Of a stretch of 64,000 nt of DNA, positions 26,096 to 63,835 are shown piece after piece. Within the stretch, counting starts at the first letter, position 1, and each line of letters begins with the position of its first letter. The translations under genes were made by a program, and so were the position numbers. The DNA lies in NCBI RefSeq assembly GCF_963678975.1, contig NC_089276.1, positions 1,569,445 to 1,633,444 on the forward strand. The letters are read 5' to 3'. The notes beneath the pieces were generated by a model. It made no database searches and was not told where the DNA came from. It was given only the letters and a program-made list of their open reading frames with translations. Origin of the DNA: Dysidea avara. Lineage: Eukaryota > Porifera > Demospongiae > Dictyoceratida > Dysideidae.

Positions 26096-26099
26096 ACTT

Positions 26100-26117: not shown

Positions 26118-26149
26118 CCTGAAGAAGCAGACAGGAACGTGAAGGAGCT

Positions 26150-31501: not shown

Positions 31502-31670
31502 CTCGACTCTATTCAGTGACAGTTTGCTTTTTCTTAGGATCATAGATAATGAACTCGGTTATATTATTTTATTAAGATTGCTAATATTAAATAATATACT
31601 TTGTGTGTCAACCGGAGGCTCAGCTGCGGCCACCTGGGCTTCGAGTAGGAGGTACTACTGGGGTTCTACA
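31415..31670 (+). repeat. 3' LTR
   Basis: 256 bp, identical to the 5' LTR except for two substitutions. The gag-pol stop codon (31499-31501) falls 85 bp inside it. Confidence 0.95.
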
Positions 31671-32643: not shown

Positions 32644-34605
32644 ATGGATTCGCTAACTGTATCAACAATAGAAGAATTTGAGGCGCAAGATCATGTTGAA
32701 GTATCGCGTTATTTGATGATTCCAAGGATGATTCTTAGAGGTGAGGTAGTGCCAACAGGGGTGGAGCTGGGAGTTGGTTCGTATGCGAAAGTTGCTGAGG
32801 TGAAATGCGATGGAAAATTGTACGCCAGTAAAGAAATTCATTGTTGGGTGCAGAGACTTTATGCTGAAGAAGAACTCGCTAAAATGAAGGATGAATTATT
32901 GCAAGAATGTCACTTCTGGAGTACTCTACGTCATCCTAACGTTGTACAATTCCTAGGAATTTACTATCCTTCTAGTGACGAGTCCGTACTGCCTGTTATG
33001 GTGTTGGAGAAGATGCAGGAGAGTGTAACATCACTGGTGGATAAACATGATAATATTCCCTTACTGGTGAAACTGTCAATACTATATGATGTGTCTCTAG
33101 GACTGAGGTATCTTCATGGTCACAATCCTCCAATTGTCCACCGAGACTTGTCTCCTAATAACATCCTGGTGACCCCTCATCTTGAAGCAAAGATCACAGA
33201 TCTTGGCTTAGACAAGGCATTGTCAGCAGGAGGAGATAGCAAGGCAACTTCAGGAACTGCTGTGTTTATGCCCCCAGAAGCACTAGACAATAAGCCAGTA
33301 TATGGACCACCATTAGATGTGTTCTCTTTTGGAGGTGTGATCCTCTACATGACTAGTCGACAATGGCCTACTCTAAAATTGCAGTCAGAAATTGATTCCA
33401 AACAGCAGAAAATTTTGTCTGAGGTGGAACGACGTAAAGAGTACATAGACATGATGAGTGGAAGTGATGTAGGTTTAAAGCCGTCGGTTTTGTCATGCTT
33501 AGAGAATGATTCAAGATCACGTCCTACAGCTGCAGAGTTATCCGATAAGATCAAGATAATGAAGGAAGAGTACAGTAAGTTGACAACTCGCGATGGTATG
33601 GACCCCATCTCATGGCTGGCTGAGATCGAGCAACCACCACAGTCACAGGTTAGCATTAACAAATAAAAATTTATTCTACATATTTTATGTTAGGAGTCCA
33701 TCATACCTGACCTGTATAGTGGCTCAGTGTATATGAAGTGGCAGACTGGGACCCGTGCACCAGTCACTAGTGGAAAATATGTAGCACAAGCAGTTGCACT
33801 TAATGGAGCAGTGTATGTTGGAGGAGGTGGTAGCAAAGATGATCCTCATTATAGAATAGATGTTTTTCATCCTAGTGTGAACAAATGGGGAGAAACTATC
33901 TTGTGTCCTCATCGGTTATTTGCCATCACTGTGCATCAAGGAGAACTGACAATTGCTGGCGGAAGTACTAGAGATGGATTTATCACTAACTTGGTGCTTG
34001 TGTTTCAGGAGGGTGAGTGGAAGAAATATGCAGAAATGCCTACAGCTAGAACCATGGCCACTGCTGTTAGTCACAAGTCAGTATTGATAGTAATGGGTGG
34101 CAATAATGGTTACAGCACACTCAGTGCCACTGAAGTATTTGATGGTACTACTAGCCAGTGGTATAAATGTGATGATCTACCTCGACCACTTCAGTTTGCA
34201 GAGTCTGTCATAGTAGGTGATAAGCTTTATGTGTTAGCTGGGGTCACACAAACTAAAGAATTATCTACAGTGGTGTACAAGTCTTCCTTAGGTACTCTAT
34301 CATCCAGTCACCAGTTGAAATGGCATCATTGTATTGACTCTACCCGACATGCGGTATCTGCTGTTTGTGTGGGAGACACTTACCTATTAACAGTTGGTGG
34401 GAGAGGTAGATATAATACAGTGACTGTGCTCAAATCATCTAAGACTGATTCCTCTGCCACGTGGGTATCTGTTGGTAGTCTGCCAGTAGTACAATATCAT
34501 GCTGCTGCTGTCAGTATTGATAAGATAATTGTGATTGGAGGTAATGACTATGATCTTAATATGACTAACACCGTGTCTATTGGAACATTCCAACAAGCTA
34601 GCTAA
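32644..34605 (+). CDS. Gene B: RIPK/IRAK-like protein kinase-kelch protein
   Basis: Two exons, 32644-33648 and 33694-34605, are joined in phase 0 across a 45-bp intron (GTTAGC...TTAG), giving 638 residues. An upstream in-frame GTG at 32632 is not needed; ATG at 32644 is the likely start. The kinase domain covers about residues 38-320: Gly loop GVGSYAKV (43-50), Lys63 in ASKEI, HRDLSPNNIL (Asp168), DLG instead of DFG at 186-188, and MPPEAL (about 209). HRDLSPNNIL and the DLG variant place it among tyrosine-kinase-like Ser/Thr kinases near RIPK/IRAK relatives. All catalytic residues are present. The kelch half has six blades (YVGGGG, IAGGS, VMGGN, VLAGV, TVGGR, VIGGN), with Gly lost in blade 4. 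Unlike genes D and E there is no coiled-coil exon, and the kelch exon lacks the QLVVK lead-in. It probably recruits substrates through the propeller, which is inference. Confidence 0.9.
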
Positions 34606-35205
34606 CTATACAGTGTAGCAACCTTGTACTGTGTGCTTTGTTGTTATGTGCCATCTGAAATTAAACTACCAATTAATGCATGCATGTGTGTCGTTCGTGG
34701 GTATAGATCTTATAGTCCTGTGGGAAGGGAGGATGCATTGCATGCCTTTTATATGCAAAGTGTGGCCCATCTGCACCTACATCGAATAGGGGTTCAATGA
34801 CTGCTGCGGTCTGCTATCACCTGCCTACGTGGAGCTAGATCCATCCGTGGCAGCCCAGTAGTGATTGGAGCACTTGACCTTACAACATCTGAAGGTCAGG
34901 TGCTTCCTTCTAAACATCTTTGTCCGGCATCCTACAATCTAGTGCTGGGAGTGGTGGCAATTAAGGGATGTTGATGTACATGTTGCTTAGTAAATGCATA
35001 CCGATGCGTACGTGTACGTATATCAGGCACGCCCACATAACACTCTAATTAAACAGTCAGCACCACGAGGTATAAAATTAATCTGTTTACGTTGTGCTTT
35101 ATTTAGACATTATCCTTCTGCCTTAGTCAGCAGTTTCCGCAGGCGCCAGACCGTACCCATTACCTGCCAAGAGTCTGGCTAAGGGCGGGAATCAACTACC
35201 AACAG
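34606..35205. other. Gap between genes B and C
   Basis: 600 bp. A candidate poly(A) signal AATTAAA lies near 34659. A segment sharing TAGTGCTGGGAGTGGTGGCAA with 42055-42080 lies at about 34950. No ORF of note. Confidence 0.4.
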
Positions 35206-38200
35206 ATGGGTAGCCCAGCCAAGTATTATGAGGCGTTCAAGAAATCGTATCCCAAGTTGATATCAGCTCTTCCAATCGATGATATGTTGTCGTACTTAGT
35301 GGCGGCAAGAGTACTTCCTGGGAGAGTGAAGGCGAGGATGGACGCGGTGCCGGTGTGTAGCGATAAAGTTAAGCTAATGCTGGATGAAATGGAGGGAGGA
35401 TTGGAAGCAGATATTCCAGATCAATTTGAAAGTCTTATCAAAGTTATGGAACAGTTTAGTATAGACGAAGATCACATTGTAGTTAGAAAATTAGCAGAAA
35501 ATATTAGAATGGTTATCACTTCCGGAGACACACCTGAAGATCTACCAGTATCACCAAGAGTTATGTTGCCACAGGTTTGTAAAGTGCCAAGGATACTGAA
35601 ATAGTTGTATGCTGTCACCTGTGGACCCCTTCTAGCTATGCAACCCACCATGACATTAGTGAGACGCATTTATGTATACATGTTGCTGTCAGACCTTCCT
35701 GAGTGCTGGTCACTGTAAAGCACTAATAGCAATAACATACCAAGTTCACTGAAAACCCTAATTAATCAGCCACTTCTCAACTTTGTTTCAGGTTCACCTT
35801 GTTAGTTTTTACTCCCTTTTGAAGTATTTAATCACAGCAACATAAGGCTATAAGGGTTATAAAGTAGAGGTATATTGATAGAGAAATTTTTTAACCAATC
35901 TGAATCTAGATGCCAATCTGATGATATAATAAAGTGTAGCCATTTAGTTTGGAGGAAACAAAATAGGGAACTTTTAGCATTTTAATTTCTTGCTATTTAT
36001 GTTAGAAAGTGGTTTAAAGTGCTAATGGATGCCTGTGGCTGTGTGGCCTCAAATAATAACCCAGACAATAAGGCACCCATGCACAAATTATTTTTATGCA
36101 TGCTCATACTAAGATTGGTCTGCATTATCAGTATGATACCGTATACCCTAAATATTTCGAGGGGCAAATTTTTCGAGGTTGAGCAATGTTGCTAAAAATA
36201 ATGTTTTCACGGAATTGCAAAATGTAATAGACTATATGGAGGTCTAAATATAATGGATTTTCTACTGACTGACTAACAGCCTGATGCCTTCAGACAAGCG
36301 TAACTCAACAACGGCTAAGATACCAGCTTAATTTTTTAACTGTTCGGCATTGCTTCGTCCCTAGATGTGCCTTTTAGCATACTACAGAAATGCATGCATC
36401 ATGGATTTGCCTTTGTATTCCATTTTCATTTTACTGACTGCCCAAGGTGTTAATTTGTGGAAACGCTATGCTTGGCTTCTCATTTGTATACAGGAAATGT
36501 CCGTATTTTCCGTGGTGACTGGATTGATTGCAGAGGCATTCTTTGTTTGTAACGCTATGTAACAGGCTGAAAATAGGTGACAGCAAAATGTAATGGCCAT
36601 GTTCACTTTCCTTTCCTGGGGACAAGGCCTGACCCGCATCTGTTGTATATATACTTCGAACTATATAGTTGGCCCCCCACTCTTTGGCCTGCTCCACCAT
36701 CCGAAAGAAGTTAATTCTGTGAGTACTGCTCATGAGTGTGACAAAATAATATAATAATGTGATTGTTCGTTCAGAATTAATCATAAATTTAGTGATTAAG
36801 TGATATGCATTTTTGTTTCATTTCTCCATTTCAGAGTAATGCACTTTGCAATTACCTGAAAATCAGGTAGTTCAGATAGCAAGGTTCCACATTACTGCAA
36901 AGCCTTGTGAATATGTGTACACCTAATACCGTATAGCTGGTAATTTTCGAAAGGTTTTTATTTTCGGATATTTCGAAGAGGCCCTTCTCTTCGAAAATAA
37001 ATTCCCACGTCTGGTTGTTTTTCGAAAATAAATTCCCACAAGTGAAAGCAACCGTCCAACTTTCGGGAATTCGTTCGTGTATTCTTCGAGTTTTAGCTCA
37101 GTATTGCTGATGATAATGGGTAAACTGTATCATTACTGTACCAATAACCAGAAAACAGGTTCCAGAATGGGAATTGATGCCGTCTGCTCTAGAATCTATG
37201 GTATATGATCGAGTGTGATCGTGCAAGTGAATTCACTCCACCCGAGACTCCCTCAGTCTTCTCTCCAGTGCACAGGAATGGGGATTATTCCATCAGTAAG
37301 TCAGCTTTCGTTAAACATTCACGCATCTTCATAATTTGTGGCACGGATTTCCGTTTATTTGAAATCCATCTGGACTTCGAAATATGCACTCTTCGAAATT
37401 AAAATCTTTCGAAATTCAGATTTTGCTTCTTGTGCGAAAATTTCTGTTTCGAAAATAACCCGCTATACGGTAGTTGTGGAGCTTACATTATTGTCTTGCG
37501 TATTCTCATTACATTTTGTAGGAGCAACCAGTTGAGGAGTCCTTTATACCAGACCTATTCAGTGGACCAGTGAACATCAAATGGGATCAAGGAGCTCCTG
37601 CACCAGTGAATAGAGCAGGTCACAGTGCAGTGGTCTATAATGGAGCAATTTATGTTGGAGGTGGCTGGTATGGTGATGATCAGTATCACTATCAAGTAGA
37701 CATTTATCATCTCAACACCAATACGTGGGACTCCATTGATACTCCACATGCGTTATTTGCCATGACTGTCCTTATGAATAAACTGGTTATTGCAGGTGGA
37801 CTAACCAGTAGTGGTCGTAATACTAACAATGTGATTGTATTGGAGAACAACGACTTCAAAGACTTTACAAAAATGCCAACAATAAGATGCCGTGCAACTG
37901 CTATTAGCCACCAATCAATGATGATAGTGATTGGTGGTTATGATGGCTCAAGGAGAATTGGTACCACCGAACTATTTGATGGAATGACTAGCCAGTGGTT
38001 CAAATGTGATGATCTCCCTCAACCACTCTCACATTTACAAGTAACAATAGTAGGCAACACACTCTTTGTCATGAGTGGAGCTGATGCAGCCAATAGCCCA
38101 TCCAAAGCTGTATACAGTACTTCCTTGAATACTTTGTCCAGTCATCAGTTAAACTGGGAACGACTTCAGGATTCTCCACTGCCTTGTGTAGCTTCGGTTA

Positions 38201-38415
38201 CTTTGGGTAACAAATATCTACTTATAGTTGGAGGGAGGTCTAGAAGTAAAACTGTTTATGTTCTAAAAGATGGATCATGGAAAGTGATTGGAACTTTATT
38301 GTTCGTTCAGTACTACCTTGCTGCAGTTAATTTGGGAAATAAAATTTTTGTGATTGCCGGGAAAAATTATGACACTAGTATTGGCAATGTTGTGTCCATC
38401 GGAACATTTTTGTAA
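35206..38415 (+). CDS. Gene C: CARD-like domain-kelch protein
   Basis: Exon 35206-35574 (ATG to donor CAG/GTTTGT, 123 codons) and exon 37522-38415 (acceptor GTAG, ends TAA) join in phase 0 to give 420 residues. The first exon encodes a helical domain: YYEAFKKSYPKLISALPIDD, MLSYLVAARVLPGRV, then DKVKLMLDEMEGG, then FESLIKVMEQ. The spacing and hydrophobic pattern match death-fold domains, best a CARD (helix 1 with ..L...LPIDDML, helices 2-3 with LVAARVL, a DKVKLML helix). The second exon is a six-bladed kelch domain (YVGGGW, IAGGL, VIGGY, VMSGA, IVGGR, VIAGK). The 1.95-kb intron holds MITEs and a composite-repeat fragment. Further small exons inside it cannot be excluded. The combination suggests an adaptor that links death-fold signalling to a propeller-bound partner; this is inference. 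Confidence 0.75.
36135..36365. repeat. Intronic repeat fragments in gene C
   Basis: 36135-36250 is a truncated CCGTATA-family MITE (ACCGTATACCCTAAATATTT, GAGCAATGTTGCT, TATGGAGGTCTAAATAT). 36262-36320 is a minus-strand fragment of the composite repeat body (TGCCTTCAGACAAGCGTAAC). Confidence 0.55.
36927..37472. mobile_element. CCGTATAGC-family MITE in intron of gene C
   Basis: The left end is TACCGTATAGCTGGTAATTT and the right end is GAAAATAACCCGCTATACGGTA, with TA at both borders. The interior repeats TTCGAAAATAAATTCCCAC twice. A 545-bp TA-flanked non-autonomous element. Confidence 0.65.
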
Positions 38416-39580
38416 ATACAATAAGGATTTTGCTGTTCTGTTATTAAGTAATTGTGTTTGGATTGGTGAAGCATGCATGGTAAGCAGACCAGTGGTTAAA
38501 TATGGAAAAGCCAGTATAACAGTCTATCTTCTGGCAGGGAACATGGTATTAAATTATCATTTTATAACTAGTAAAACTGAGTATCATGGCAAAGTGTAAT
38601 TCTGTTTGTGCACCTATGTGTAGGTGTACATGCATGCGTGTGTGTGTGTGTAGTGACCAGTCCAATTCTGTTTGGTCACTTCAGCTACTTGATTTGTAAA
38701 TGACTGAGATACTCTAGAGCAGTCAACCCCATAACTCTAATAGAGCAGTCAGCTAAAGGTTTCAGTTAGACTACCAGTTCACAACTGGTATTGGTAATTA
38801 TGCCTCAAAGGTGGATTTTAAGAATCGTCTCCAGACCCTCCTACAGTGGAACCTCTTATCCAGGCATTCTGATACATACTACTGTCCGTATCTCAGAAAT
38901 GTGTAATGATAATAATATATATTGTGCTAAAGTAATCAGTTAGTGCTATACAATTAAGAGGAGGAAGTCACTACAGAGAAGTCATGGTGTGGATTGTAAA
39001 AATGTATTGTTGCCTAGCAACCAAATGGTAGTTATTAGTAAAAAAAAATAACCACCTAACAGGTAAATAGCAACTTTTAGGTTCCTTCCTTGTGTTCATC
39101 TAATTATAACCCAAACTTGATTATGGTCAATAGACTACATGCCACATGACCACTTTGGACTGTGCCAGCTGTCTGGTGCCCAGATAAGGGAGGTTCCACT
39201 GTAGTTTTGCATGTTCTTGTGCTTTGCAGTTTAGCTATATCTTGTATATATGTCTCATGTACAGCACAGATGGTTATGGCCTGACCACTTTTTTCACTTC
39301 ACTGTGGCTTTCTGCGCGCGCACTTACACTGCATGTGTGAATATATTATGCATGAGTCGAGTTAACTACCAGTGCATGGTTCCTCTTTTTGTGTATAGCT
39401 AGGCCTGAGTCAAATATGCTCAAAAGGTTGCCCAAAATGCTAAAATTTTCACCTATTTATGCTCTTCAGTGCTCCCATTATGTTTGCATTATGCTTCTAG
39501 GTTAGCAACATTTCTTACAATTATCTTGGAACATTTAATCAGTGAATGCTAATTATCTTGGAACATTTTAATCAGTGAAT

Positions 39581-39628
39581 GCTCTATTAGAGTATTTCAC
39601 TACAAAGTGACTGTTCTATTAGAGAGTA
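39581..39628 (+). repeat. Pair of TATTAGAG dyads, 31-bp spacing
   Basis: GCTCTATTAGAGTATTTCAC is followed by GTGACTGTTCTATTAGAGAG. Another related half (GTGCTCTATTGATAG) lies at 39661. Confidence 0.65.
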
Positions 39629-39926
39629 TCGATCTAAGGAGCTATGTACAATGCATTTGAGTGCTCTATTGATAGGAGAAACAATCTATTTAAGCTCCAT
39701 AGTTTGAAATATCCACCTAATATGCTAGCATTATGCTGGAATAGTACTCCAGCCTATAATGCTGGCATATTTGACACAAGACTAGCTATGTGTAACAATG
39801 TGAGTTTTGCACAAATTAAAGTCAGTCTTGTGAGTGCATAAGAGTGTACATGTACTTGTGAAAGGAAATGTGTCTTTGCAATTACATGATCAAACATCTG
39901 TTTTCCTACAAGATAATGAGGTATAT

Positions 39927-40224
39927 CAGGGGCGGATCCAGAGTTTGGAAAGAGGGGGGGCACCTTGCTGAAAAACAGTTGAAGACCAAAAAAAAAAAAA
40001 AAAAAAAGGTCACAACAATAATAGCTAGTTATCCTTTACCAAATATATCACGTCAATAAAATCCTATTTATAGTTTCATAGGTAAGCTACACTGCCTCAT
40101 GAACATTGTGACTGCTTTATTAGAGTAATTGACTGCTCTATTAGAGTATCTCGATCTTGTATGCAATTTCTTGAAGGGGGGGGGGGGCATTTGCCCCAAA
40201 TGCCCCATCCTGGATCCACCATTG
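39927..40224. mobile_element. Inverted-ended element with GGATCCAG termini
   Basis: The left end is CAGGGGCGGATCCAG and the right end is CTGGATCCACCATTG (reverse complement CAATGGTGGATCCAG). G-runs lie next to both ends and an A19 tract is inside. GTATAT flanks it if the last base is trimmed. It is probably another hAT-type MITE; the target duplication is unclear. A TATTAGAG pair sits inside it. Confidence 0.5.
40109..40150 (+). repeat. Tandem pair of TATTAGAG dyads, 21-bp spacing
   Basis: GACTGCTTTATTAGAGTAAT is followed by GACTGCTCTATTAGAGTATC exactly 21 bp later, repeating the spacing seen at 2686/2707. Confidence 0.75.
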
Positions 40225-40375
40225 TATATACTAATGGCTCATTTGGTTGCATGTACTATTATTACAAGAAAAGAAAGGCATAAGCCTGTGAGTCCTGCTC
40301 ATGTACAAAAAGAAAATAATCATTAGAGGTAATCAAATAAAATCTTAAAGCTATTTACGGAGTTGGTTGACACTA

Positions 40376-41010
40376 CTTAGGTAGACTATTCTGAGCTTTT
40401 ATTGATCTCATAGAGAAGAAATTACTTCAAACAGATCTTTGTGCATGTGGCTTGAACAATTTGAGACTGTCTCCTCTTGTTACACTAGACAATTATTGTT
40501 GGTGAAAAAACATTTCAGACTGTAAGCTGATATTGTCATGTAAAAATATTGTACACCATCAACATATCTGTACGATGTCTTAGGTAAGATAGTGAATGAA
40601 GATTTAGAGCACTTCGACGATCATCATAATTATTCTAAATTAAAAAGTTCTGGAATACATTTCATAGCTCTTCTTTGTACCTTTTCCAACATCTGACAGT
40701 CACCAATATAATTAGGTCCCCAGACAACATTGGCATACTCCAACATTGGTCTTACTAGAGATTTATAAAGTATAAGAAGTGATCTGGTGTTTAGCAAGTT
40801 GAATGTTCTTTTAATAAGTCCTAAAATATGGTTAGCTTTGTTTGTAACAACAGTTGTTTGACTATGAAATTTCAAATTAGAATCAACTATTATTCCCAAG
40901 TCTTTATGCTCAGACACAACTTGTAATGGTTGACCATCCATGAAATATGTATAACACAGGTTAGTGTTCCCCAAATGCATGATCACTGTATGCACGGCAG
41001 ATTCAATATC
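40376..41010 (-). pseudogene. Decayed non-LTR retrotransposon reverse-transcriptase fragment
   Basis: Minus-strand translation gives KDLGIIVDSNLKF, NHILGLIKRTF, LYKSLVRPMLEYANVVWGP and LEKVQRRAMK. This is the conserved region just after the polymerase core in CR1/L2/jockey-type elements. It continues downstream in broken frames (LNLHSLSYLRHRTDML, then a RGDSLKLF-like part). It starts and ends abruptly with several stops and is not functional. Confidence 0.8.
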
Positions 41011-41265
41011 TTGTGGTTTTCAGTTTGCAGAGATTGGCAGCAGTCTTGTTTTTGAAAATGCAATGTGTCAATGACATAATATTCCCGGCATGCTTACACT
41101 TTCACTGTGACTTTCGGTTTATGTCTTACCTTCCCCTTTGGGATTGATCGAAACTAATGTTCTGATTCGCACTGCTGTGTAACAAAGCATAATGGTTACT
41201 TCACTTTTCAGACGTAACAACACTGCAGTTCACACAATTTCGTTAAAAAGATTGAGATGCAGTAA

Positions 41266-41500
41266 TACCGTATAACCTAAATATTTCAAGGGAAATTTTT
41301 TGCTGATTTTAGGGGTTACCAGTGAAATTTTTATCCTTGAAATATTAATATTAGACCTCCATATAACATAATACATTTTGGGCCTCCATATAGTGTAATA
41401 CATTTTGGGAGTGTTTGCAAATCCGTGAAAATTTATTTTAAGCAACACTGCTCAACCTTAAAAAATTTTCCCCTCAAAATATTATTTAGGCTATACGGTA
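41266..41500. mobile_element. CCGTATAGCC-family MITE
   Basis: Ends TACCGTATAACCTAAATATT and AATATTATTTAGGCTATACGGTA with TA borders. It shares interior blocks (TATGGAGGTCTAATATT, GGGAGTGTTTGCAAATCCG) with 42633-42810 and 43094-43303. Confidence 0.7.
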
Positions 41501-42239
41501 GATAGTTAGAAATTCTAATAGAACAGTCACACAATCATACTGCTCTTCAGCAAACATGTAGCTAAAACCTCATCTAAATCTGTGCATCAACAGGTTGGAA
41601 GACTTGTGACCAATTTTCAGGGGAGTGGGAAAGTCTGGTTGTCAACCCTCTCAGTTACAACACAGATCAATCATGAAAAGATGTTGTATCAATTGCTATC
41701 TTGGTTTTAAAATGTTTACAAAATCTGTTGGCATGTGTGACCACATAAATGCATGCATATAAATAATCTTCTTTTTTTTCAATTGTTATTTTAACAGGGA
41801 GGCAGCATCAGCCAAAGCTGTTCTTCAGCTACACCCTGCACCACAACATACATAATACTAACACAACACATGTACGGTACTTAGTAACTACTTACAATCT
41901 TCAGTAATGTGCTTGAGCATATATTGATCTGGCCTACTCCGAGGGTCGCTTGGAGTCTGGTGGCCTTAATAATTAGTATTAGTATTACTTTCAGGAAAAA
42001 GGCACAGCCTTGTTTGATTGCTGGTAGCTATTTCCAGCTGTCCAACACTTTAACACCTAGTGCTGGGGGTGGTGGCAAGGGCAGTCCATCTAGCCCAGGG
42101 GAAAAAAATACTTATGTACAAAATTAATGTTTATAATTGCTAATAGTCCTAATTTTCTTTTTTTTTTGGTTTTACCTCAAATTCAAACGTGATGCGCTTA
42201 AATACATAAGCTACCTGGCGCAAACATTAAATCTTTCAG

Positions 42240-45200: not shown

Positions 45201-48200
45201 TGAAAACTTAAAATGAGAGTGGACCTCATTCATAAGTGGGCCAATCTCACCCATTTTAGCCTCAGGTCTCATTCCTAGTGGACTTTACAGGTTGAGGTCT
45301 CTGCTATGAATATACTGGACCAGAGCAGTTACACATAATGCTTCAAACTTAGCAACTGAATACAGTGGTGTAGCTTTTCTGCCAGGTCTAGATCTACACA
45401 GACCAATTTACATACAAATACAATCTCTACAACTTAATTGGTGAAAACGACATCTATCTTGACCAAGAGAGGCTTTGACAGGCTTGCAAAAATGAGCCAG
45501 AGAATGAGATATCATCTAGTCTCTGGACATTGGCTGACACACTTCTTGAGCTTGTGACCTTAGCAAAATCTTATAGAATCCTTTGTTTTGTTCATCATTC
45601 ATTCTGTCAGCATACACCAAAGGGTTTTGAGGCATATGCCTAGCAGTCCACTATGAGTAAATTTCAATGTTAATGCTGAGCTCCAATCAATTATGGTACC
45701 AACAATGGAATATTTTCATATATCATATTCTGACTTCTATAAGGATGACTTCTTTAAGGAACAGATGAAGCATGGCTGTACATGCAGTATTATCACAACA
45801 ATGACATTTGGAGCATCCAAATCTCCTTCCCACAGAGCATCACTAGATGCCTCCCTTGTCATGATTTTGAAAGCATTTGTTAAAACTTTTGCCAGTCCTT
45901 GTTGATGATGATCATGTGTTCTCACATATGTAGCTATGTAGGAATATCCACATAACTAATTACTAGTTGATTTATAGAAGCTCTATGTATTGAAGATGTA
46001 GGTAGCAGCAACAGGTCAAATCCTGAAGGGTGTGAGTTACAGGTAAATTATGGCCAGTCAACGTTCTGATCATAGTCACAGATCTATACCACACATGACT
46101 ATATATGTTACAACTCCTTGTAATTTTACCTCACTGAGCCAATGACATCACACGGCTGTGTCCAGAAGAATGGCTGTGCTGAATACCGTGAAATTAACTC
46201 AATAATCAATCAATCATACAGGCTGTCCACAACAGCTACATTAAGTGGACTCCCATGCAGACATCAGGGCATCAGTTTAGTAGTAATAAATTAGTTTAGT
46301 ATTGTTAGGGAACCATGCTTGTAAATCCTAACTTTTATGGATGAAATTTGCCACCAATGTATGTGTATTTCAATTGAACCCGTTTGATAGAAAGATTCAT
46401 ATAATCCAAGAATCTAATATGGTCACCCGGTAATGGTCCGTCTTTAGTATTGATATATTTGTAGATGTTTGACCCAGTATTGAGCTATAGCAATCTGAGG
46501 TCTTTACAAAAATGTTCAACAGTTAGACCTGGTTTCTCAGTGCCCAGTCAATAGGGGGAATCACATGATGTCGGTGGTAAGTAATACATTTATAAACAGT
46601 GTACTTTGCTGTGTCAACTTCACCAGTAAAGAATTGCGCTGCAGGGAAAGAGATATATTTTTAGAGATGGTGTTAAAGGTACAGTATTCTCACAGACTCA
46701 AAAGTATATTGAGTTACTGGGCATAGCTAATAGACCACAAAAAGTATTTGTGATTAATTTCCCACGTCATTAGTGTGTATTGTGTAAGTTATGAAGGCAT
46801 ACAAGTTAGAAAATTAAAGAACTGCATAATGTTTTCAGAGATGCACCACAACCCCTTCATGTAGACGTTCATCTAAAAAAGCTTTATATACTTTTTGGGC
46901 TTGATAAGTTTTGCTCACATTATTATAATACACCGTCAGCCAGACACAAGATTTCCTAAACCAATTTGATGCATACCTTATGGACATGTAGCTCTTGCAT
47001 GATTATAAAATAATCCTGAGTCTGAAGAATATATGTAGGAAAATAATAAAAGCTGTACCTTATATTGCAACAATCTACATCTGCAGTTGGTAAATGAATC
47101 AGATCCCACGAAGACATGATAGAGGCCATTTAAGCCACACGTCTCTGGTGTATAGCTGTGTAGGTGCAATAATATGTTTTTATAGCAAACTCCAGTGTAG
47201 TAATTACATAGTATATAAGTAAACACTTAAATGTTAATACTAAACAGTGTAATCGCTGTTATGAAACTTGGGTTGCTTTTTATGTAAAATTTATTTCCAT
47301 GCAAAAACATGCCACACATTACTGAAATACAGTGTCATAGTTGATGATTCCTTGCTGTGTAGGTGACCACCCAATTGGAAGAAATGAGAAGCAACAATGA
47401 GAAGCTGATGGGAGAGTTTGATGGCCTTAAAACTAAAGTTGATGGTCTGATGGTGGAGAACAACAGTCTTAAAGAAGAGAACAAACAGTTGAAAGCTGAG
47501 AACCAACAATTAAAAGTATGTACAGTTAGTAAGGCAAGCTCCTGGTAGAGCACAGCATGGAGTTTAAGTTCCATTGCCACTTTTGTTGTAATGCAAAAAT
47601 TCAGCTATATAGCGTCATCATTCATGACATTACAAATGCATACATAGCATAATACATGTATAGCAGGAATTATTAGCACTTGTATACGTACAAAACCAGC
47701 CAAGCAGTAAGAAAGTGTGTAACCAGATTGTTGTGGTGGCCACCAAAATGTAGTTGCAGTGACATTAATGATGGCTGTGCATTATTGGCATTAACATCAT
47801 TGTAGTCATTCTTCATAACTTTTCTCACTCAGGTTTTTGAAGGTTTACCTTTATTCGTATATACCTTGTTTGTTATTGCACTTCACTTCCTTTTGTATTT
47901 ATACACCATAAGCTGACCACAAGCTGGCTATGAGATTGATGATTATCAATAACAGAAGTTACAATCATACTTTATTGCTTAAAATTATTGTTTTTGTAGT
48001 ACTCTAATAGAGCACACGTTTTGTGGACAACACACACATACACACACATAGAATGACAGATTTTCCATTGGTACAATTCACTAGATTTATGCAATTTTTA
48101 CTATTGAGTAGGTTTAAACTGAACTTCATTTATCAGTTATTGTGAGCTGACAGTAGTGGTTTGATTTGAAAGTTAGGTGCAGAGGTCCCTGGTCCAAACT

Positions 48201-49574
48201 ATGGACAATTTTTATGCGTTTCATGCACATTTTTACTTCTTAGTGACTGTTCTATTAGAGTATTTCAATGCTGCAATTTTACACTGGGTTGGTAACTCTG
48301 CTGCGATTTCTTTTAAATAGCAAAAAGGTTTTATTTTTGATGGTGGTTAACTCCTGTAAATATTGACTTTCTTCTGGTATGTGGTTTACCTTATAGTGTA
48401 GGTGTGACAATGTGTTTGTATTTTTAATGCAAATAATTCTGTGAATGTTTATCAAATTTGCACCAGGGTGTTTGTAGTGTTAAAATCTTTCCATTTGGAG
48501 AAGGGAACACAGAGGCTTATATTTCAAACTGCAAAAAAATTATAATTGTAATAGTAATATGATTATGTGACTTTTTGCTTTTTGGTATGATTGGATTGTG
48601 CCCACTGATCAGTACAGTGCATTATTGTTGTTTAGAAACAACTGGTTGTGAAGGAGTCCCCCAGACCAGAATTATTTAAAGGAGAAGTGGACATCAAGTG
48701 GCAAGAAGGAGCCCTTATACCAGTACCCTGTGCCAATCACTCTGCCATACTACTTGAAGAAAAGGTGTGCATTGGAGGAGGTCATGAAGGCACTGGCACA
48801 CCATCTTATAGGATAGATGTATATGATCTAGCTGACAACTCCTGGAATTCAACTCCCATCACTATTCCTTATTGCAACTTTGCCATGGCCACTCTCAACA
48901 AACGGTTGATCATTGCTGGAGGCCAAGACAAACGTCATAAGGTGACCAACATGGTGTTTTCAGTAGATGGAGATCCAAAGAAATATACCAAGATGATAAC
49001 ACCAAGAAGTTTGGCCACAGCTGCTGGTCATCAGTCAACATTAATAATAACTGGAGGTGAAGGAGATCGCCGCAAAAAGATATTATCCACTGAATTGTTT
49101 GATAGTTCCACTGGACAGTGGTATGCTACCGACCATCTTCCACTACCCCACTGTAGATTACAGGCAGTTATTGTAAACAACAACCTCTACTTGTTAGGGG
49201 GAACTGATCTGAGTGATGATTATTCCCCAACAGTATTTACTGCTCCTCTAGACACCTTGTCCAGCCATACCTTAAAGTGGAACTCCCACCCAGACTATTC
49301 AATTTGCCAATCAGCTCCTGTTAGTGTACAAGATAGACTGTTCCTTGTAGTTGGAGGAACAATAGACATAATGGATCATCAGTACATACCGACGCGTGAT
49401 ATTCGCATGTTTGACAAGGTCAGTCAGAACTGGATATTCGTAGGATATCTCCCAACAGCAAGAAACGCAGCAGCTGCTGTTTTCGTAGGTGATAACACAA
49501 TAATTGTGTTTGGAGGACTGAATGATACCAATGACTATACCAGTACTGTTTGGATTGGCTCATGTGAGCCATAG
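42240..49574 (+). CDS. Gene D: coiled coil-kelch protein
   Basis: Well-supported exons are 47363-47515 (acceptor TGTAG, donor GTATGT, 51 codons) and 48636-49574 (acceptor TTTAG, TAG stop, 312 residues), joined in phase 0. The first encodes a leucine-zipper-type coil (QLEEMRSNNEKL, DGLKTKVDGLMVENNSL, EENKQLKAENQQLK) that runs straight into KQLVVKES of the kelch exon. The kelch half has six blades (CIGGGH, IAGGQ, ITGGE, LLGGT, VVGGT, VFGGL). A candidate first exon is 42240-42296, MAGAPPESSGYQQPSTTMP, which ends at a good phase-0 donor (GTTAGT). The link to 47363 across a 5-kb repeat-filled intron is tentative. No kinase or CARD-like exon was found between, so this member seems to lack a catalytic or death-fold module (382 residues if the first exon is right). 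The coil suggests dimerisation, possibly with gene E's similar coil. Confidence 0.7.
42633..42810. mobile_element. CCGTATA-family MITE, internally deleted copy
   Basis: Ends TACCGTATATTTCGAG and TATTTAGGCTATACGGTA with TA borders. The interior matches the longer copies (GAGCAATGTTGCTAATTTTCG, TATGGAGGTCTAAATATTTCG). Confidence 0.65.
43065..43095. repeat. Perfect 31-bp palindrome
   Basis: The 15-bp arms TATAAGCACCTGCTT and AAGCAGGTGCTTATA surround a single C. It ends exactly at the TA border of the MITE at 43094. Confidence 0.85.
43094..43303. mobile_element. CCGTATAGCC-family MITE
   Basis: Ends TACCGTATAGCCTAAATATT and AATATTTAGGCTGTACGGTA. Interior GGGAGTGTTTGCAAATCCG and TAGCAACATTGCTTAACCT are shared with the other copies. 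It lies in the putative first intron of gene D. Confidence 0.7.
43304..47362. other. Putative large intron of gene D, no gene seen
   Basis: AT-rich with only short ORFs. Apart from a possible MITE at 45004-45303 I see no coding exon. A kinase or death-fold exon was looked for and not found. Confidence 0.4.
45004..45303. mobile_element. Possible MITE with short inverted ends
   Basis: The left end AGACACCTCAACTCTCAT and the right end reading back GAGACCTCAACCTGTAAAG share GA-ACCTCAAC. The interior repeats CTCATGCATT/GCATGGTTTTCCATCTC-like and CTCATGTGATTT segments. Weak evidence. Confidence 0.35.
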
Positions 49575-50234
49575 TGACCCTGTATGGTGTGCATAAGTAA
49601 TTATTTCATTTATTCAGAGCTCTTAAGTGAGCAATGTAATAGTAGCTTGATGTACATTGTACCTATTTTGGAAGCATTTAAGAAGTCAGTGAAATGTGGA
49701 GTTAAGAATTATGGTGTAAAATTGTGCGCCTTAGCAACACTGATAGTAAGGAAGCAGCTAAACATGGTCCTCAAAATACAAGGGAGATACAACATGACCC
49801 ACACTCGTGGAATAATTTCTATGTGGGTCCATATATATAATTATCTTTAGTTCCCTATTATGCTCCATTGAGTTCCATTATACTCTGGTTAAGTTCTTTA
49901 AACACTTGTATGACTTGAGTTCTAAAATATCTTACTAGAATATTTGTATCTATTAGTATCTTAATCTTTAGTTGCTCTCCCCCCTTCCCAAATGAAGCTA
50001 TAGATCTGATATGTGACTGTTAACCTTTTAATGTACACTAATACTAACTATGGAATGCATGTGTGTCTGCTTTAGTGTATTATCCCACAATGAAACATTG
50101 CATGTTGTATAAGCCATGCCAAAATACTTTTATGTGCCATGACAGTACAAATTAAATCATACTATAGTATTATTATTATTAATGGATGGATATACAAACA
50201 GGGTTACAAATAATATAAAATTTGGATCAAAAGT

Positions 50235-51175
50235 AAAGTTTAGGCACTAGGCCTTTGTTCATATCCATATCCTATGTCATTCCAATAATTATCAAGACTT
50301 GCTTTGAAAGTAAAGATTGTTGGTGCTGAAACAACTTCTGGCAGGGAATTCCATGTATTTATCACTCTCTGGGTGAAAAAATTCGACCTTAAAAGTAGAC
50401 ATGATGGTTTTTTGAAAAGTTTCATGTGGTGTCCTCTAGTGTGATGCCCAGAGTTTAGAGTAAAGTACCTTGCCCAGTCAACATCATAATAACTGTGTAA
50501 AAGCTTGTAAGCTTCAATGAGATCCCCTCGTTTCTGTCGACAATAAAGAGAATAGAGTCCAAGTTCTCTTAACCTTGACTCATAAGGTAGTTTGACTATA
50601 GTCCATTCACAAGTTTAGTGGCCCGCCTTTGTATATTTTCTAGAGTATCAATGTCCCAGGCTAGATATGGACACCAAAGCTGGATGCAATATTCTAGCTG
50701 TAGTCTAACATAAATTTTATACAGGAAGATAAACAATTCTATAGAGAATTTTGTAAATGTTCTTTTAAGCATTCCCAGTATCCTGGTTGCAGCAGCTGCA
50801 GCTTTTTTTATTTTATTAAAGCTTTACAGCACAAGTGCTGTAGGACACCTGGTCCTACAGCCTGCTCAAAGACTTTTTAACTACTTAAGGTGTGTTTGAA
50901 AAGTTGGAGAAAGGAGAAAAAATCCATGACTGGACCTATAGGTAACCTCGAACCTGCAGCCTTTGTCACAGTGCAAGGAAGGTTTAAGAGAAGATGTTAT
51001 CCATATGCCTAGATCTTTCTCAAAATCTGTTTTGTCAACTCCACAGTAGACCCCAAAGTTTCCATTATATAATTCCTGTGCTTTTACCTATATGCATCAC
51101 TTTGCACTTCTCTAAGTTAAGGTTCAGTAACCAGATCCCATTCCATTCTTGCAAGTCACCATTCTTGCATGTTAT
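50235..51175 (-). pseudogene. Decayed non-LTR retrotransposon RT 3' part, interrupted by a SINE
   Basis: The minus strand reads, in order, NLEKCKVMHIGK (about 51120), TDFEKDLGIWITS (about 51010), then the SINE. It resumes with TRILGMLKRTFTKF, YKIYVRLQLEYCIQLWCPYL, IQRRATKLVNG, LGLYSLYCRQKRGDLIEAYK and NFFTQRVINTWNSLPEVVSA. This is the classic C-terminal RT region of CR1/L2-like elements. Several stops and frameshifts; not functional. Confidence 0.85.
50803..50995 (-). mobile_element. tRNA-derived SINE inserted in the RT remnant
   Basis: Minus-strand reading has a B-box-like GGTTCGAGGTTACC, a T-run (GGATTTTTTCTCC), a hairpin with CTGTAGGACCAGGTGTCCTACAG, then GCACTTGTGCTGTAAAGC and an A-rich TTTAATAAAATAAAAAAA tail. 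It splits the RT reading between TDFEKDLGIWITS and TRILGMLKRTF, so it is younger than that element. An A box is not clear. Confidence 0.65.
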
Positions 51176-51689
51176 TCAAGTCTAGATCTAGGTCTCTTAT
51201 ATTATATTCAAGTCTCTTCTATATCATGTGCAAATCATGACAATCATATAACACATTCGATCTTACATAGTTACAAATTGAGGAATGACTGTTGTCATAT
51301 AGATGAAAAATAATTGTACATAATTATAGATAAGAATTTTTATAATGTAGGAATACATGCGCACAGCTATAATATTCAATTGCAATACCTTACAATAACA
51401 AGTGTAAGCTAGAAATTTCAAGAAAAAATTCAATGAAACAAGCTACACTAGCTGACATATTAATTCCTACTTAACTTAATTCTTATTGCAAAGTACATCA
51501 AAGGTAGTAAGAATGATGCCAGACACATTAATCATGCAAGTTAACACACCCAATTATCAATGACTGAAATGCAAAACCACTTCTTTTTTATGCCATTATA
51601 CAGCATTACAAGTAAAAAGCAGTACAAGAAGCCACTCTTTGGAAACGAAAGTGCTGAAGCCATGCCAGCACAAGTTAAATATCAGAGAG

Positions 51690-51990
51690 GGTTAAAAGAC
51701 ATGGGATACATAGGAGAACAAGGTAGGTCCATGATGTATGCGTAATATAGTAGCTGCTGGAGTTGGCAAAAAAGCACATCTCATGATCAAGCTGAAGCAA
51801 TGCCAAACGGAGAAGAAATCAAGCCTGCATGTAGCCTATCCATAGTCAAGTTGAAAGCATCAGTCAGTCAATCAGTCAGCTAGTAAAATATTTCATAGAA
51901 GTTGGTTAGAAGGGTTGAGGTCACTTTGAAGACATTTACCAATACTGCCAACTTGAAGTTCAAATACCGATACTTTACCAATACTACCAG
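51690..51990 (+). repeat. Composite repeat family, partial copy 4
   Basis: CAAGGTAGGTCCATGATGTATGCG, AAGCATCAGTCAGTCAATCAGTCAG and TTGGTTAGAAGGGTTGAGGTC follow the order body, tetranucleotide tract, tail seen in copies 1-3. The foldback and far tail are missing. Confidence 0.6.
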
Positions 51991-53357
51991 GTTCAAATAC
52001 GACAACTTTTAATTCACTGTACATGTGTTAGCTAATACTATATATACATATTATAGTAAAAGGCACACATGTTAAGGCCTCAAGGTTAGAGATGGTGGTT
52101 ATAGCTATTAATCAGTAACATATATATGAACTATAAAGAAACTTCCAAGAATTATTAAATATTTGTAGGAGTCAATACAATTATTCAGATTGTTTTAAAA
52201 CATATAATTGAAGGGGTCAGTGGAAAAAGGGGACATGTGCCATTTTAGATTTTCCATTTTCTAAAAATTTGAATGGCTTGTTTTAACCATGTGAATAATA
52301 TTGTCATTAAGTAAACAACAGAGTTTAAAAGTTCATGGCAGTCTCAAATTGATTTTTAGCAAATATTACAATATTTCAATTATATACCAAAATTTTGTTT
52401 AATGCCCACTATGTGGTCACCTAAATTTTCAAATGGCACTTGTCCCCTTCAATTATGGGAAGGATAGCAGCATAGATAATGTATGTCACATGGATTGGAA
52501 ACGCCCGTATTATTTACATAGTGACGTCATGAGCTATCCTCGTTTCGCTGCGCGTAAACTTTATGGCCTCGACAGGTGGAAGATTTCGCTGTTCTTGTAA
52601 CCATTAAATTGGTGTTTGTTGTTTACAGCTGGGTTAGTTACCACCCACACTAATTGGAGGCCGGACTGGGTAGGGCCGCTGGAGAATAGTAAACAACAGC
52701 GTAAGAAAATTCACGTTCAAAGGTGAAATATGGTGTTTCAAAACGGTTGTGCAAATTTCCTGAAGAAACAGAAAGTGTAGCATTGTTTCTTTGCTGCTGT
52801 TTACACCACTTGTAGCAGGTAGAGTGTAGTAGGCTAGCTAGATATTCACTGCTTCGCTGTATATTTTCACTGCTTCGATAAAACTTCAGAAAACAGACAC
52901 TACGTTGTGCTATTGTTTAGCTCAAGCTGAGCAGTACTGTAGCTTAAAATTTATTTCAATGTATCACACATTTCTTTGGTTGTGTAAATGCAGTGACAAG
53001 AAGTTGGCTAATAGTACTGCTGTTGAATTATTAGCTGGTGCGTACCTGCCATTGTCACCTGTCGCAAACAATATTTCTCCGAGGACAACTGAAGTTTGCA
53101 CTGTCAAGATTAGTTCCGTCTGAGCACTGTTCCAACTCATTACAAAGTTGTACCAGCACGAAAACCTTCATCAACAATATGTAGCTTCAAACAATAATGT
53201 TTCCTTGCTTCATGATCTATCTCTCGTACGTAATCACTCGATCATTTCCATCACTACTTCTTTTGCCCTACAAAAATCGCGTTCACGTGATCACGCTACC
53301 CAGTGTATAGGCGAAGAGCCACACCCTTGATTTTACTGGCACATCCGGTATTTCATC

Positions 53358-56300
53358 ATGGCAGCTACAGTTGCTAATGATCTTACTTTGCAAGACGTTA
53401 ACCCCACTGGAAAGGAAATTGGTCGTGGTGCTTATGGGAGAGTGTTTGAGGTCGACTATCAAGGGACCCTGTGTGCCGCCAAGGAGGTACACGCGTTACT
53501 ACTACAGTATTCGGACAGCCAAGAGCTTAGCAAGATCACAACAGACTTTCTTAATGAATGCCAAATATGGAGTACCATTCGCCATCCTTGCATCGTTCAG
53601 TTTTTAGGTATATACTTATTATAATTGAATTTGCTTATATGCAGTCTATAATACAGGAGTATACTATCCGGTACGTGACCAGTATAAATTACCTGTTATG
53701 GTTATGGAGAAGATGATATACAGCCTGAGGGGTCTGGTGGAGAAGTATGCCAGTATACCGTTAAATGTGAAGTTGTCCATATTGGATGAAGTGTGCCTTG
53801 GTCTAAGATACCTCCATAGTAGGAATCCACCAATTGTACACCGTGACCTCACCCCTAATAACATTTTACTGGGAAACCGTCTTGAAGCCAAGATCACTGA
53901 TCTGGGTGTTGCTAAAATGATGCAATCAGATAGTAAGAAAACCATGACTAAAATCCCAGGAACACCAGATTTTATGCCACCTGAAGCACTCACCAAAAGA
54001 CCTGTCTATGGTCCTCCATTGGATATATTCTCTTATGGAGGAGTAGTCCTTAATGTTATTACTCACCAGTGGCCAGAACCATCTGATCGAGAACAGCTCA
54101 ATGTTGACACTGGGAGATTTGAGGTGATATCAGAGGTGGCGAGACGTCAGCACTATCTTGATACACTCACTGGAGGTGCTGCTGACCTGAAATCAGTAGT
54201 GACATCTTGTTTAGATGATGATGCCAGAAATCGTCCAACAGTTATGCAAGTGTCCACAGAAATCAAGAGGATAAAAGATGTGTGCAGTCAACAAACCAGT
54301 CATGATGGGATGAGTCCCATCGTATGGTGGGTTGAGGTATCTGGTCAGTCATCATCACAACAAGTTAGTTGTAAAGCAACAGCAATGCTACTGGTATAAT
54401 AGACACTTGTTCAGCTTAAAGTTTGGTGCCAGCTTATTTTCCACATCAGCGTAGTATAACAGGATTTCCACATTGTTTTTGTGACCAGCTTCCACGTGCA
54501 CAAATTAAAGTTGTATTTTCACTATGACCAGATTTCTACACTGATAGACTTGCTGTTTGAAAAGAATCTTTTCTCAGACCTTGTGAGGACCACAAATAGC
54601 TAGTAGTTTGGTAGAATTCAATGGCCATAGCATTCATTGTATTATGTAATAAAGCTGGTAAAGTCACAGAAAACTTTCTTCAGTGTCTCTTTCTTTATCA
54701 GTTGATAGTGTAAGGATAGCCCATAAGGACTTAACATCTAATCTTCATTTATCTTCTTATATCATTTTTTAAGAATAGATTCCCATCACCAGAATGACCC
54801 AGGTATCTAAATTGAACCATATGAAGAATGCATGCATATCCGCACTTATGCAGCAAATTAAAGAAACTATAGCTTTGTATTGAAAGTAGCTAGTATAAAT
54901 GCTCTATATACATCTATATAGATGCTGCACAGGTGGGTAAGCTTTATTAATTACTCTGAGGAGCATAATTAAAATACAAATGAATCTGGTTTCTATGCTA
55001 TTCATTGAGAATAGCTTTCCTAACAGGATGTATAAGTGTTGTAAAACTAAAAATGACAGTGTGGGCCTTGCTAGTAGCCTCCCAGGAAATTGCGTATCTT
55101 TACTAAAGAGGTAAGCACGCCTCTAATGAGCAGACTCAAAGCTTTGTTAAGAGACATTATATTTTTGTTAGAAAGCACCATAGACAAACTATTAAAAATT
55201 AAGATGGTTCTGAGTGTTGTTTGTAGTTAATGTACTCTGTTTGTATTAGCTATACCGTACAACAGCTTATATGTGCAAGCTCCAATTGTTTGCAAATTAT
55301 TGAAGTTTAATTTACAAAATTGTCTACTGTCAGGGACTGAAATTCTTATAATTTTCAAGTGAGCCGAGTTTCACCAAAACTTACTGTATTAGAAACATTA
55401 ATGTCAGTAGTGTAGAAATATGGAGAAATTGTTCATGCGACATGTCTCACAAATTCAGCAATTGCAGAAATTAGATGCTACACTAATATATTTTAGCTGC
55501 TTCGCAAAATTTTAGACCTTATACAACAATAATCTGTAATAGTACTTCCTTAGCTAAAATGGTAATAAATGGATTACAAAATTAATAGCGAAATGTATGC
55601 ATTAAAGTACCATACAGAGGGAAATTTTGGTGGGGTAAAATTTGGTAAATAGCCTGCAGCTAAATTGCATTTGGCACAATAAGCTTTGGCGAAATCTTTA
55701 GCTATAAACAGGCACTACGCATTAATTGACAGGTTACTTAGGCAAATTTGTAGCAAATCACAAATCAGCCTGCCAAAGTTTTCCTCTATACAGTAAGTAA
55801 TTAACACCATTGTTCAGTCAGGCAGTAGTGTTCCTGAGATCTCCAGCCGCACCAGTGATTATTGCTGCCTTTTCTTTATCTTATCTGTCATTCTTGCTGT
55901 ATTTTTTGGCACAATTGAGGAATGTAATTTTTCAGCAAAGCATTCACAGTGCATGACACATGGATTAATATACAAGCTATATCTATTATGACTAGTGAAC
56001 CTGCAGAGTTTTACTATAATAACTGGTTATTGGAAGGTAATAGGATATTGACTGGTTATTGTCTGATTGTAAATTAACAGACATAATGGTACTCAACATG
56101 CCTGTTGGAAGCCTTAGAGTGGTACCAAAGTGACCATCAACATCCTGCCTTACAATAACAGTTATTACAATCATTTCCACATGCTTTGAAGTTAACACTT
56201 GTCAGCAGGGGTAATTTATGGTTTACCAAGTGGGTGGGCAAAAGCAGTAAAAGGCTTCTTAGCCAACAATTGGCTTGACCTAGACAATACTGGTTATGAA

Positions 56301-57788
56301 TGAAGTATAGAGATTAAATTTGCACTATGTACATAGTATAGCTGCAGGTTTACGCGGTCCATAGGTGGCGGAAGGGGGAGGGGGGGCTAGGGGGCCAAGG
56401 TTCCCCTCAGAATGATATCATGCCAAAATTATCCTTCTTGGAGTGGGGCTGAAAACCATTGATATACTCTAATAGAATGCTCAATTACCCTAATAGAGTG
56501 GTCAAGGCCTTCATATAAACGTGTTCCTAAAAGTATATAGTTAAAAAGAAAAAAAGTTGCCTGTACAGCAGGAATCGAACCAGGTACCCCTTACCACTGT
56601 ATCAAGTGTTTCCGGGTGGATATAGGCTGTTTTGTACTGCTTATAAATGCTATATGTGAATGCATCAAGTAAAAATCAGGCCTTCAGATCACTCAACTAA
56701 AAATTGCAATTAACTTAACATATTCATGGTCTATTCACTGTAAAAAATTTTATACAAATTGAATGTACCATGTCCATGTATCAAATAAATTTGTACCGCT
56801 GTTCATTTTCAGTTATACCACTATATACCAGTGAATATATCCCGGTATAAAACAGTTTATTTCTCTAAAATCGTTTGTGAGTGAAGGCCTGATTTTTACT
56901 TGATGCATTCACATAATTATGTTCATTAACCCTGCAGCTAAAAGCTTTGCCAAAAACGTTATTAACTGCAAATAGCCTGTTTTAAATAGTTTTGACTAAA
57001 AGTTGGTGTTTTAGTTAAAATTGTACCTATAAAATTGCTATAAACATTAATTTTGGTGGACTTTGAGACATTGTGAAAACTATATGGCTACAGCTTCTGT
57101 GGGTTGTACCCCCCAGCTGCAAGACATTCTATACTCTGGTCAGCCCCCCCTCATATCAACTACTTCCTCCGTCACTGGGTGGTCTCCCTTGTTTTTATTA
57201 CTTTGTTTCTATGATATCTGCTCAAATCTAAAATTACTAATTTTTTTCTGTGGATATATAGTGCCTAGTTTTTAGAAGTGGCTCAACATCAACTTGTTAC
57301 TGGTGTAATCAGAGGCCATAGTCTAGTAAGTAATAATAGCAGTCCACTGATCACCCTTACATCTACCATATCTATCCACACAAAAAGTTTACCCTTCAAG
57401 GTTTAACCTTTACAGATTGATATTTGCTTGTGTTAATAATGGTCATAAATCTGCAACCAATGATTTGTCTTGAAGTACACCACTATCATGAGCATTAATG
57501 GTACATGGAAATTAGCTTATGCATGGAAATAGCTTATGATTATAGTGGCATATGTTTGTGCAGGAGTCATTATTTACCACCAAACTAGAGGAGATGGAAA
57601 TTAGCAATAAGAAGTTGAAGGGAGAAGTCACCATTCTTAAAAGTGAAATTTCTGATCTGAAGGTGGAGAATGATGGTTTGAAGGTGAAGATTGATGGTTT
57701 GACTGTGGACAATACTGGCCTCAAGGCAGAAATTACTGAACTTAAAGAAGAAGTCGACCAACTCGAAACTAAAAGTCAAAATTTACAG
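53358..57788 (+). CDS. Gene E: RIPK/IRAK-like kinase-coiled coil protein (kelch exon not in window)
   Basis: Exons 53358-53607, 53657-54363 and 57564-57788 join in frame; the first intron is 49 bp and splits a Gly codon. The kinase domain carries GRGAYGRV (22-29), Lys42 in AAKEV, HRDLTPNNIL (Asp147), DLG (165-167) in place of DFG, and MPPEAL. All catalytic residues are present. It aligns with gene B throughout (RHP..VQFLG, LGLRYLH, PVYGPPLD). Residues 320-394, from the third exon, form a coiled coil (KLEEMEISNKKLKGEV, DLKVENDGLKVKIDGL, LKEEVDQLE) homologous to gene D's coil. The exon ends at donor CAG/GTTAGC in phase 0, exactly where genes B, C and D attach kelch. No kelch exon was found in the remaining 6.2 kb. 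Either it lies beyond 64 kb or repeats have displaced it. Confidence 0.85.
55608..55795. mobile_element. Small TA-flanked MITE in intron of gene E
   Basis: The left end TACCATACAGAGGGAAATTT and right end TTTTCCTCTATACAGTA are inverted with TA borders. 188 bp, no ORF. Confidence 0.55.
56464..56500. repeat. Pair of TATTAGAG dyads, minus orientation
   Basis: ATACTCTAATAGAATGCTC is followed by ACCCTAATAGAGTGGTC, 21-22 bp apart, in the intron of gene E. Confidence 0.65.
56545..56640 (-). repeat. tRNA-like T-arm fragment followed by a T run
   Basis: The minus strand reads TGATACAGTGGTAAGG, then GGTTCGATTCCTGC (a perfect B box, GGTTCGANTCC), then AACTTTTTTTCTTTTT, which looks like a Pol III terminator. 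The anticodon arm is missing: the D-arm-like and T-arm-like parts are only about 10 bp apart. It is a tRNA relic or a SINE head, not a functional tRNA. Confidence 0.45.
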
Positions 57789-58504: not shown

Positions 58505-59665
<1,161 letters not shown>

Positions 59666-61287: not shown

Positions 61288-61327
61288 CGGCTAATTTATT
61301 TACTCCATTATAGAATTTTATTACATC

Positions 61328-63665: not shown

Positions 63666-63835
63666 TCCTGTGGGGAATAATGAGCATGTAATAAATATAT
63701 GTATATAATTTGTATAATTACTAATAAAATCAAAAATAATTGAAATACTAAATTCTTCTTTAAGTTCTTTTCTTCTTCCTGTGGTAAAGAAAAAAACACA
63801 TGGGTTAAAAAAGCCCCAAAGCCAGCCATAGGCCG

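Follow-up and report, generated by a model that had tools for sequence, protein, structure and literature searches.

Kelch propeller genes with protein kinase or predicted CARD-fold heads in the sponge Dysidea avara

The window analysed here is a 64,000-nucleotide stretch of the Dysidea avara genome (NCBI RefSeq assembly GCF_963678975.1, contig NC_089276.1, positions 1,569,445 to 1,633,444 of the forward strand) that carries five loci, A to E, with exons encoding kelch propellers or protein kinases. All five are on the + strand and were defined from open reading frames (ORFs), Pfam matches and splice signals; coordinates are those of the window. They may belong to an old sponge family in which either a kinase or a predicted CARD-fold domain precedes a kelch propeller.

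Layout of the kelch loci

Locus A is a kelch propeller exon (1..903) whose 5' end is truncated by the window edge. Gene B begins with a protein kinase exon (32644..33648, from the ATG; Pkinase 126.9 bits, cut-off 31.7) ending at the phase-0 donor CAG/GTTAGC, and a predicted intron of 45 nt separates it from a kelch propeller exon that includes the stop codon (33694..34605; Kelch_1 66.8 bits, cut-off 20.1). In gene C, exon 1 (35206..35574, from the ATG) encodes the predicted CARD-fold domain and ends at a phase-0 donor; a predicted intron of 1947 nt follows, and then a propeller exon with its stop codon (37522..38415; Kelch_1 72.9 bits), in which six blades can be counted by eye. Locus D has a coil exon identified by its splice signals and phase 0 at both ends (47363..47515), a predicted intron of 1120 nt, and a kelch propeller exon including the stop codon (48636..49574; Kelch_1 78.6 bits). 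The kinase of E is interrupted by a predicted 49 nt intron with a phase-1 donor, which separates an N-lobe exon to which kinase relatives align (53358..53607) from an exon for the remaining kinase (53657..54363; Pkinase 111.9 bits across the ORF at 53629-54396). The latter ends at a phase-0 donor, and a coil exon, again identified by splice signals, lies downstream (57564..57788).

Except for the phase-1 split within the E kinase, the modules meet at predicted phase-0 borders with GT-AG signals. An earlier note on this DNA, whose outer coordinates run from the B start codon to the last base of the E coil, described five same-strand kelch-family loci with differing modules in front of the propeller, and much of that layout is reproduced here. 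The propellers of B, C and D are each a single exon entered at phase 0 with GT-AG, the coil exon of E ends at a phase-0 donor, the preceding module is a kinase by Pfam in B and a heptad coil in D, and E combines a kinase above the Pkinase cut-off with a heptad coil. The shared strand holds for all five loci and the kelch assignment for A to D, but a translated search with relatives (E <= 1e-3) found no kelch exon for E between 57788 and 64000. The coil of D likewise stands, but the short leader placed before it is not confirmed: translated searches with kinase, kelch and CARD relatives found no similarity between C and the D coil.

The Pfam scan covered the exons of B, C, D and E, with cut-offs passed by Kelch_1 in B, C and D and by Pkinase in B and E. 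Locus A was assigned to kelch through its 34-50% identity to the kelch exons of B, C and D, which is also the range of pairwise identity among all four. NCBIfam matches to the scanned kinase and kelch exons were far under their cut-offs and were set aside. No extra kinase or kelch copies were found in the window by translated search with relatives (E <= 1e-3), nor any extra CARD exon with 16 CARD proteins as queries (E <= 0.1).

Kelch relatives were taken from the best 120 of 144 matches, of which five are named, all from Dysidea avara, a dictyoceratid demosponge. Four of these five records (P0016, P0018, P0058 and P0117) have kinase and kelch Pfam domains within one protein and run on across the position of the 45 nt intron, so B is very probably one kinase-kelch gene. 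The records are called 'uncharacterized protein' or 'probable serine/threonine-protein kinase pats1', and by its domain content kinase-kelch is an architecture for which D. avara annotations exist. As recorded, P0058 and P0117 lack part of the kinase; in P0117 a glutamine-rich linker connects kinase to propeller, a layout that by eye resembles the kinase-coil of E and the coil-kelch of D. The fifth record, P0067, is kelch only by Pfam, with a kinase-tail motif (DGIDPISWL) seen by eye ahead of its propeller. The propeller of A is 83% identical to that of P0016.

The B and E kinases, 51% identical overall, retain in alignment the catalytic lysine, HRD and the metal-binding aspartate, with DLG replacing DFG. 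Membership of the TKL kinase group, which the earlier note brought in, is a putative assignment: a PDB sequence search with the B kinase gave plant CTR1 as the best match, then EGFR, WNK, CDK6, AMPK and others, and RIPK3 is among the many PDB kinases matched. Similarity between B and P0016 is uneven, with 95-98% identity in 40-residue windows that start at kinase columns 81-121, against 52-60% in the first 60 kinase columns and 28-68% in the propellers; P0016 and P0018 show a similar contrast (95-100% in the kinase core against 50-58%, with propellers at 48-88%). Such a uniform kinase core would reflect either strong constraint or gene conversion, and we do not take this mosaic as proof of the latter. 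The coil exons of D and E are strongly heptad beyond their composition: the hydrophobic fraction at a/d positions is 0.73 in D and 0.77 in E, values reached by none of 10,000 shuffles in either case. The two coils are 46% identical over 63 residues, a likeness that coils may have without common descent. The highest 19-residue hydropathy means are 1.19-1.61, with the top value in C inside the propeller and with A, D and E incomplete, so no clear membrane span is seen, and the family products are probably soluble.

The first exon of gene C

Neither a Pfam family nor a PDB sequence matches exon 1 of C, and none of the 16 members of the CARD-like family gives a CARD match in Pfam at E <= 10 or in PDB sequences. 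Because profiles can miss distant members, the missing Pfam match does not exclude a CARD. A single-sequence fold was unusable (pLDDT 42), and an alignment-based model was used instead; it has pLDDT 79.8 and six helices over residues 4-105. In structural alignment with VIA-align, 48 of the 50 listed matches are CARD proteins, spanning residues 3-105. Foldseek E-values for the model are weak, and the aligner's own note cautions on helical bundles. Exon 1 is thus predicted to encode a CARD-fold domain of a family unrecognised by Pfam, and the CARD-like fold proposed in the earlier note is borne out by the model.

Matches to exon 1 were found in 16 of 19 exon-sized candidate proteins, the weakest at 3.3e-19, and in none of 115 candidates of the full length of C at E <= 1. 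One of the 16 is identical to part of the exon and the other 15 are 42-90% identical in alignment. At the donor position Q-V-C is present in 11 of these 15 relatives and absent in four, compared with 0.6% of shuffled tails; the residues beyond it diverge, apart from a Y common to five. Q-V-C is the expected reading of a phase-0 donor, CAG/GTNTG, translated beyond the exon end. With 15 relatives, 11 of them carrying Q-V-C, the exon is coding and conserved, with the same donor in most relatives. Its codon-usage score of 0.21 compares with a range of 0.09-0.23 obtained when each of six training exons was omitted in rotation. This is a weak result, because the E kinase exons score 0.09-0.10, one of seven presumed non-coding ORFs scores 0.14, and another frame of exon 1 reaches 0.19 despite 12 stops. 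It is conservation across relatives, rather than codon usage, that is the real evidence for coding.

The frames and phases of exon 1 and the C propeller are compatible. The conserved part of the exon ends at a conserved phase-0 donor, so it would be spliced to something downstream, and the next fitting exon seen 3' of it is the C propeller. Equal contig size and sources place three of the 15 CARD relatives, by inference, on one contig with kelch relatives: P0122 with P0004 and P0066 (5093; jgi), P0123 with P0053 (5015; jgi, lgn, ena), and P0124 with P0021 (23755; jgi). As the P0004 propeller is 82% identical to that of C, and P0053 is the nearest relative of the B propeller (78%), each beside a CARD relative, the B-C neighbourhood seems to be kept in other sponges. 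The other 12 relatives, including P0130 on a contig of 1,047,151 bases, have no such match to the kelch relatives listed; these are the best 120 of 144 matches with one contig size per cluster, and a missing match means little and is not support. The protein identical to part of exon 1, P0001 and P0019 are listed with the same contig size (929,328). Splicing of the CARD exon of C to its propeller has, on these predicted joins, indirect support. No CARD or kelch relatives were confirmed on viral contigs, and no CARD relatives on prokaryote contigs, in collections not aimed at animals.

Kinship of the propellers and surrounding sequence

A quick tree was made from 59 propellers, A to D plus 55 hand-picked from the best 120 matches. 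It groups A with P0016 and P0019 (support 95), B with P0053 (support 100), C with P0001-P0004 (support 100), and D with D. avara P0117 (support 93, two long branches). Among the matches listed, P0001-P0004 are the nearest relatives of the C propeller at 82-98% identity, with P0001 at 98%, and the P0019 propeller is 82% identical to A; in all, relatives outside the window are 78-98% identical for A, B and C and 52-54% for D. Kinase-headed records are spread over several branches. NG86 estimates for the six kelch pairs give nonsynonymous divergence (dN 0.40-0.62) below synonymous divergence (dS 0.93-1.83) in all six, which at this depth gives no hint of diversifying selection; the B/E kinase pair is saturated.

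The earlier note attributed the set to tandem duplication and named, as a refuting result, kelch exons that are not one another's closest relatives. In the tree A to D have closer kin outside the window; recent tandem duplication is not supported, and we take the tree to refute local duplication but not the kinship of the exons. From the branching of these sequences, the duplications seem to predate the split between these sponges. In the simplest history, a kinase-kelch ancestor would have been duplicated long ago and the line of C would have come to carry a CARD-fold head. Exon swapping at the phase-0 intron is a likely means of changing heads; for the CARD head such swapping is plausible, and a single head replacement in one line is simpler.

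The loci form an array only loosely, on the same strand but with about 32 kb between A and B that hold an opposite-strand gene exon and a retrotransposon. The exon (10238-11329, - strand; 275 bits) is from a glycosyl-hydrolase-30 gene of glucocerebrosidase type. The long terminal repeat (LTR) retrotransposon (25839-31670, + strand) has two 257-nt direct repeats that are 99% identical and a single long ORF with zinc knuckle, reverse transcriptase, RNase H and integrase domains, and it looks like a recent insertion. Pfam at 1e-3 gives no match to the possibly coding frames on the - strand at 12940-13404, 13805-14242 and 17989-18495, of which the first has a codon-usage score of 0.14 and the last is a YPQP-rich repeat. 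Two further segments on the - strand (40633-41019 and 50243-50823) by eye resemble the tail of a non-LTR reverse transcriptase; Pfam at 1e-3 finds nothing in 40633-41019 or 50243-50614. ORF lists point to simple tandem repeats and a degenerate repeat array at 6106-6470, 59159-59522 and approximately 61300-63700, the latter two lying 3' of the E coil, where the E propeller would be expected.

Interpretation and comparison with known systems

The explanation we favour, and to which we give about an even chance, is that the loci represent an old, expanded sponge family with kinase or CARD heads on propellers, acting as sensors or adaptors. The basic member would be a protein kinase, a phase-0 intron and a single-exon kelch propeller, as in B, P0016, P0018 and P0058, with a linker or coil between kinase and propeller in certain members (P0117 and, as far as its exons go, E) and the CARD-fold domain occupying the kinase position in C. 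The propeller would bind a partner or ligand, the head would give the output, by phosphorylation in B and E and by CARD-CARD recruitment in C, and the coils could pair family members. Such a set might act as soluble sensors or adaptors akin to RIPK2 or NLR signalling, with the propeller as the recognition part, and an immune role is a guess. More tentative still is the proposal that sponges have propeller-based intracellular sensors beyond NLRs and Toll-like receptors, whose kinase- and CARD-headed members share one ligand class and come together by CARD or coil contacts, as if a kinase-CARD signalling protein had been divided in two. In two sponges given microbial molecules, CARD genes are up and one kelch-motif gene is down in each of two tables (PMC6208332), and the genes in those tables cannot be tied to loci A-E.

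Several other explanations have to be weighed, and the most serious, which we regard as a real possibility, is that the kinase-kelch and CARD-kelch products are ordinary intracellular signalling or cytoskeletal proteins whose propellers recruit substrates, with no part in sensing or immunity. Kelch propellers are general protein-binding domains, and the low dN relative to dS fits such a role; the size of the family, its split into lineages and the predicted CARD head of C argue the other way and are not decisive, the CARD fold being known mostly from death and immune signalling. That the six-helix exon is some other small helical bundle is rather improbable. The absence of Pfam and PDB sequence matches, the weak Foldseek values and the caution on bundles would suit this idea, yet another bundle should give mixed structural matches, not an almost uniform series of CARD proteins over residues 3-105.

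A related doubt concerns the gene itself. The CARD-like exon, and perhaps the kinase-coil of E, could be a separate neighbouring gene, with the C propeller having another first exon and the phase-0 fit coincidental. The long C intron, joins predicted from sequence, the lack of any C-length protein matching the CARD part and the 12 CARD relatives with no link to listed kelch relatives all point that way. We nevertheless consider this unlikely, given the conserved donor for which the C propeller is the next fitting exon and the CARD relatives inferred beside kelch exons on three outside contigs, one of these exons 82% identical to the C propeller; for B the idea fails on the continuous D. avara kinase-kelch proteins. 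That a single locus was recently duplicated in tandem and, with exon shuffling, gave rise to a local set we hold to be very improbable: strand, phase and propeller exon layout are common to the loci, and four D. avara kinase-kelch records are listed with one contig size (42192760), but the four window propellers fall in four tree lineages and are much less like one another than A, B and C are like relatives outside, D also being closer to its own.

If there is indeed an old sponge family of kinase- and CARD-headed propellers, a CARD in place of a kinase on kelch propellers would be a new architecture, and a CARD fold unseen by Pfam would mean that profile-based counts of sponge CARD genes are too low. 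The D. avara NLR paper gives 39 CARD genes by Pfam search, and 20 CARD-headed NLRs (NLRC) (PMC12909245). Comparing kinase-headed with CARD-headed members, whose propellers are related, would also give a test case for the swapping of domains at one fixed phase-0 intron. Sponges diverged close to the base of the animal tree, and the make-up of their innate sensing is a live question. Among the matches listed from titles and abstract starts of open-licence PMC literature, none is on a sponge CARD-kelch or kinase-kelch family; a figure legend includes Kelch among the domains of Eph-like kinase proteins in unicellular holozoans, the protein being unspecified (PMC6993872).

The closest likeness is to the D. 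avara kinase-kelch records, which have a kinase and then a propeller in one protein and one of which, P0117, groups with D; unlike C, no CARD-headed member is present among the named records in the best 120 of 144 matches. The KLHL proteins (BTB-BACK-kelch) also have a C-terminal kelch propeller, and the Pfam KLHDC2/KLHL20/DRC7 kelch model matches here, but the scanned exons of B, C, D and E contain no BTB or BACK, the first exons of A and D being unseen. The APAF-1 CARD is 11% identical in sequence to exon 1 of C, and C is without a NACHT-type or WD40 part. CARD-headed NLRs resemble C in having an N-terminal CARD and a C-terminal repeat domain, and differ in that no NACHT and no leucine-rich repeats are found by Pfam in the exons of C. 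RIPK2 and the other RIP kinases use kinase and CARD as signalling heads, the layout of RIPK2 being kinase-CARD, and RIP kinases are not known to carry kelch; here the kinase and CARD-fold exons are in separate predicted genes (B and C), each with a propeller. The family may be likened to RIPK2 or NLR signalling and yet, by its domain layout, would belong to neither.

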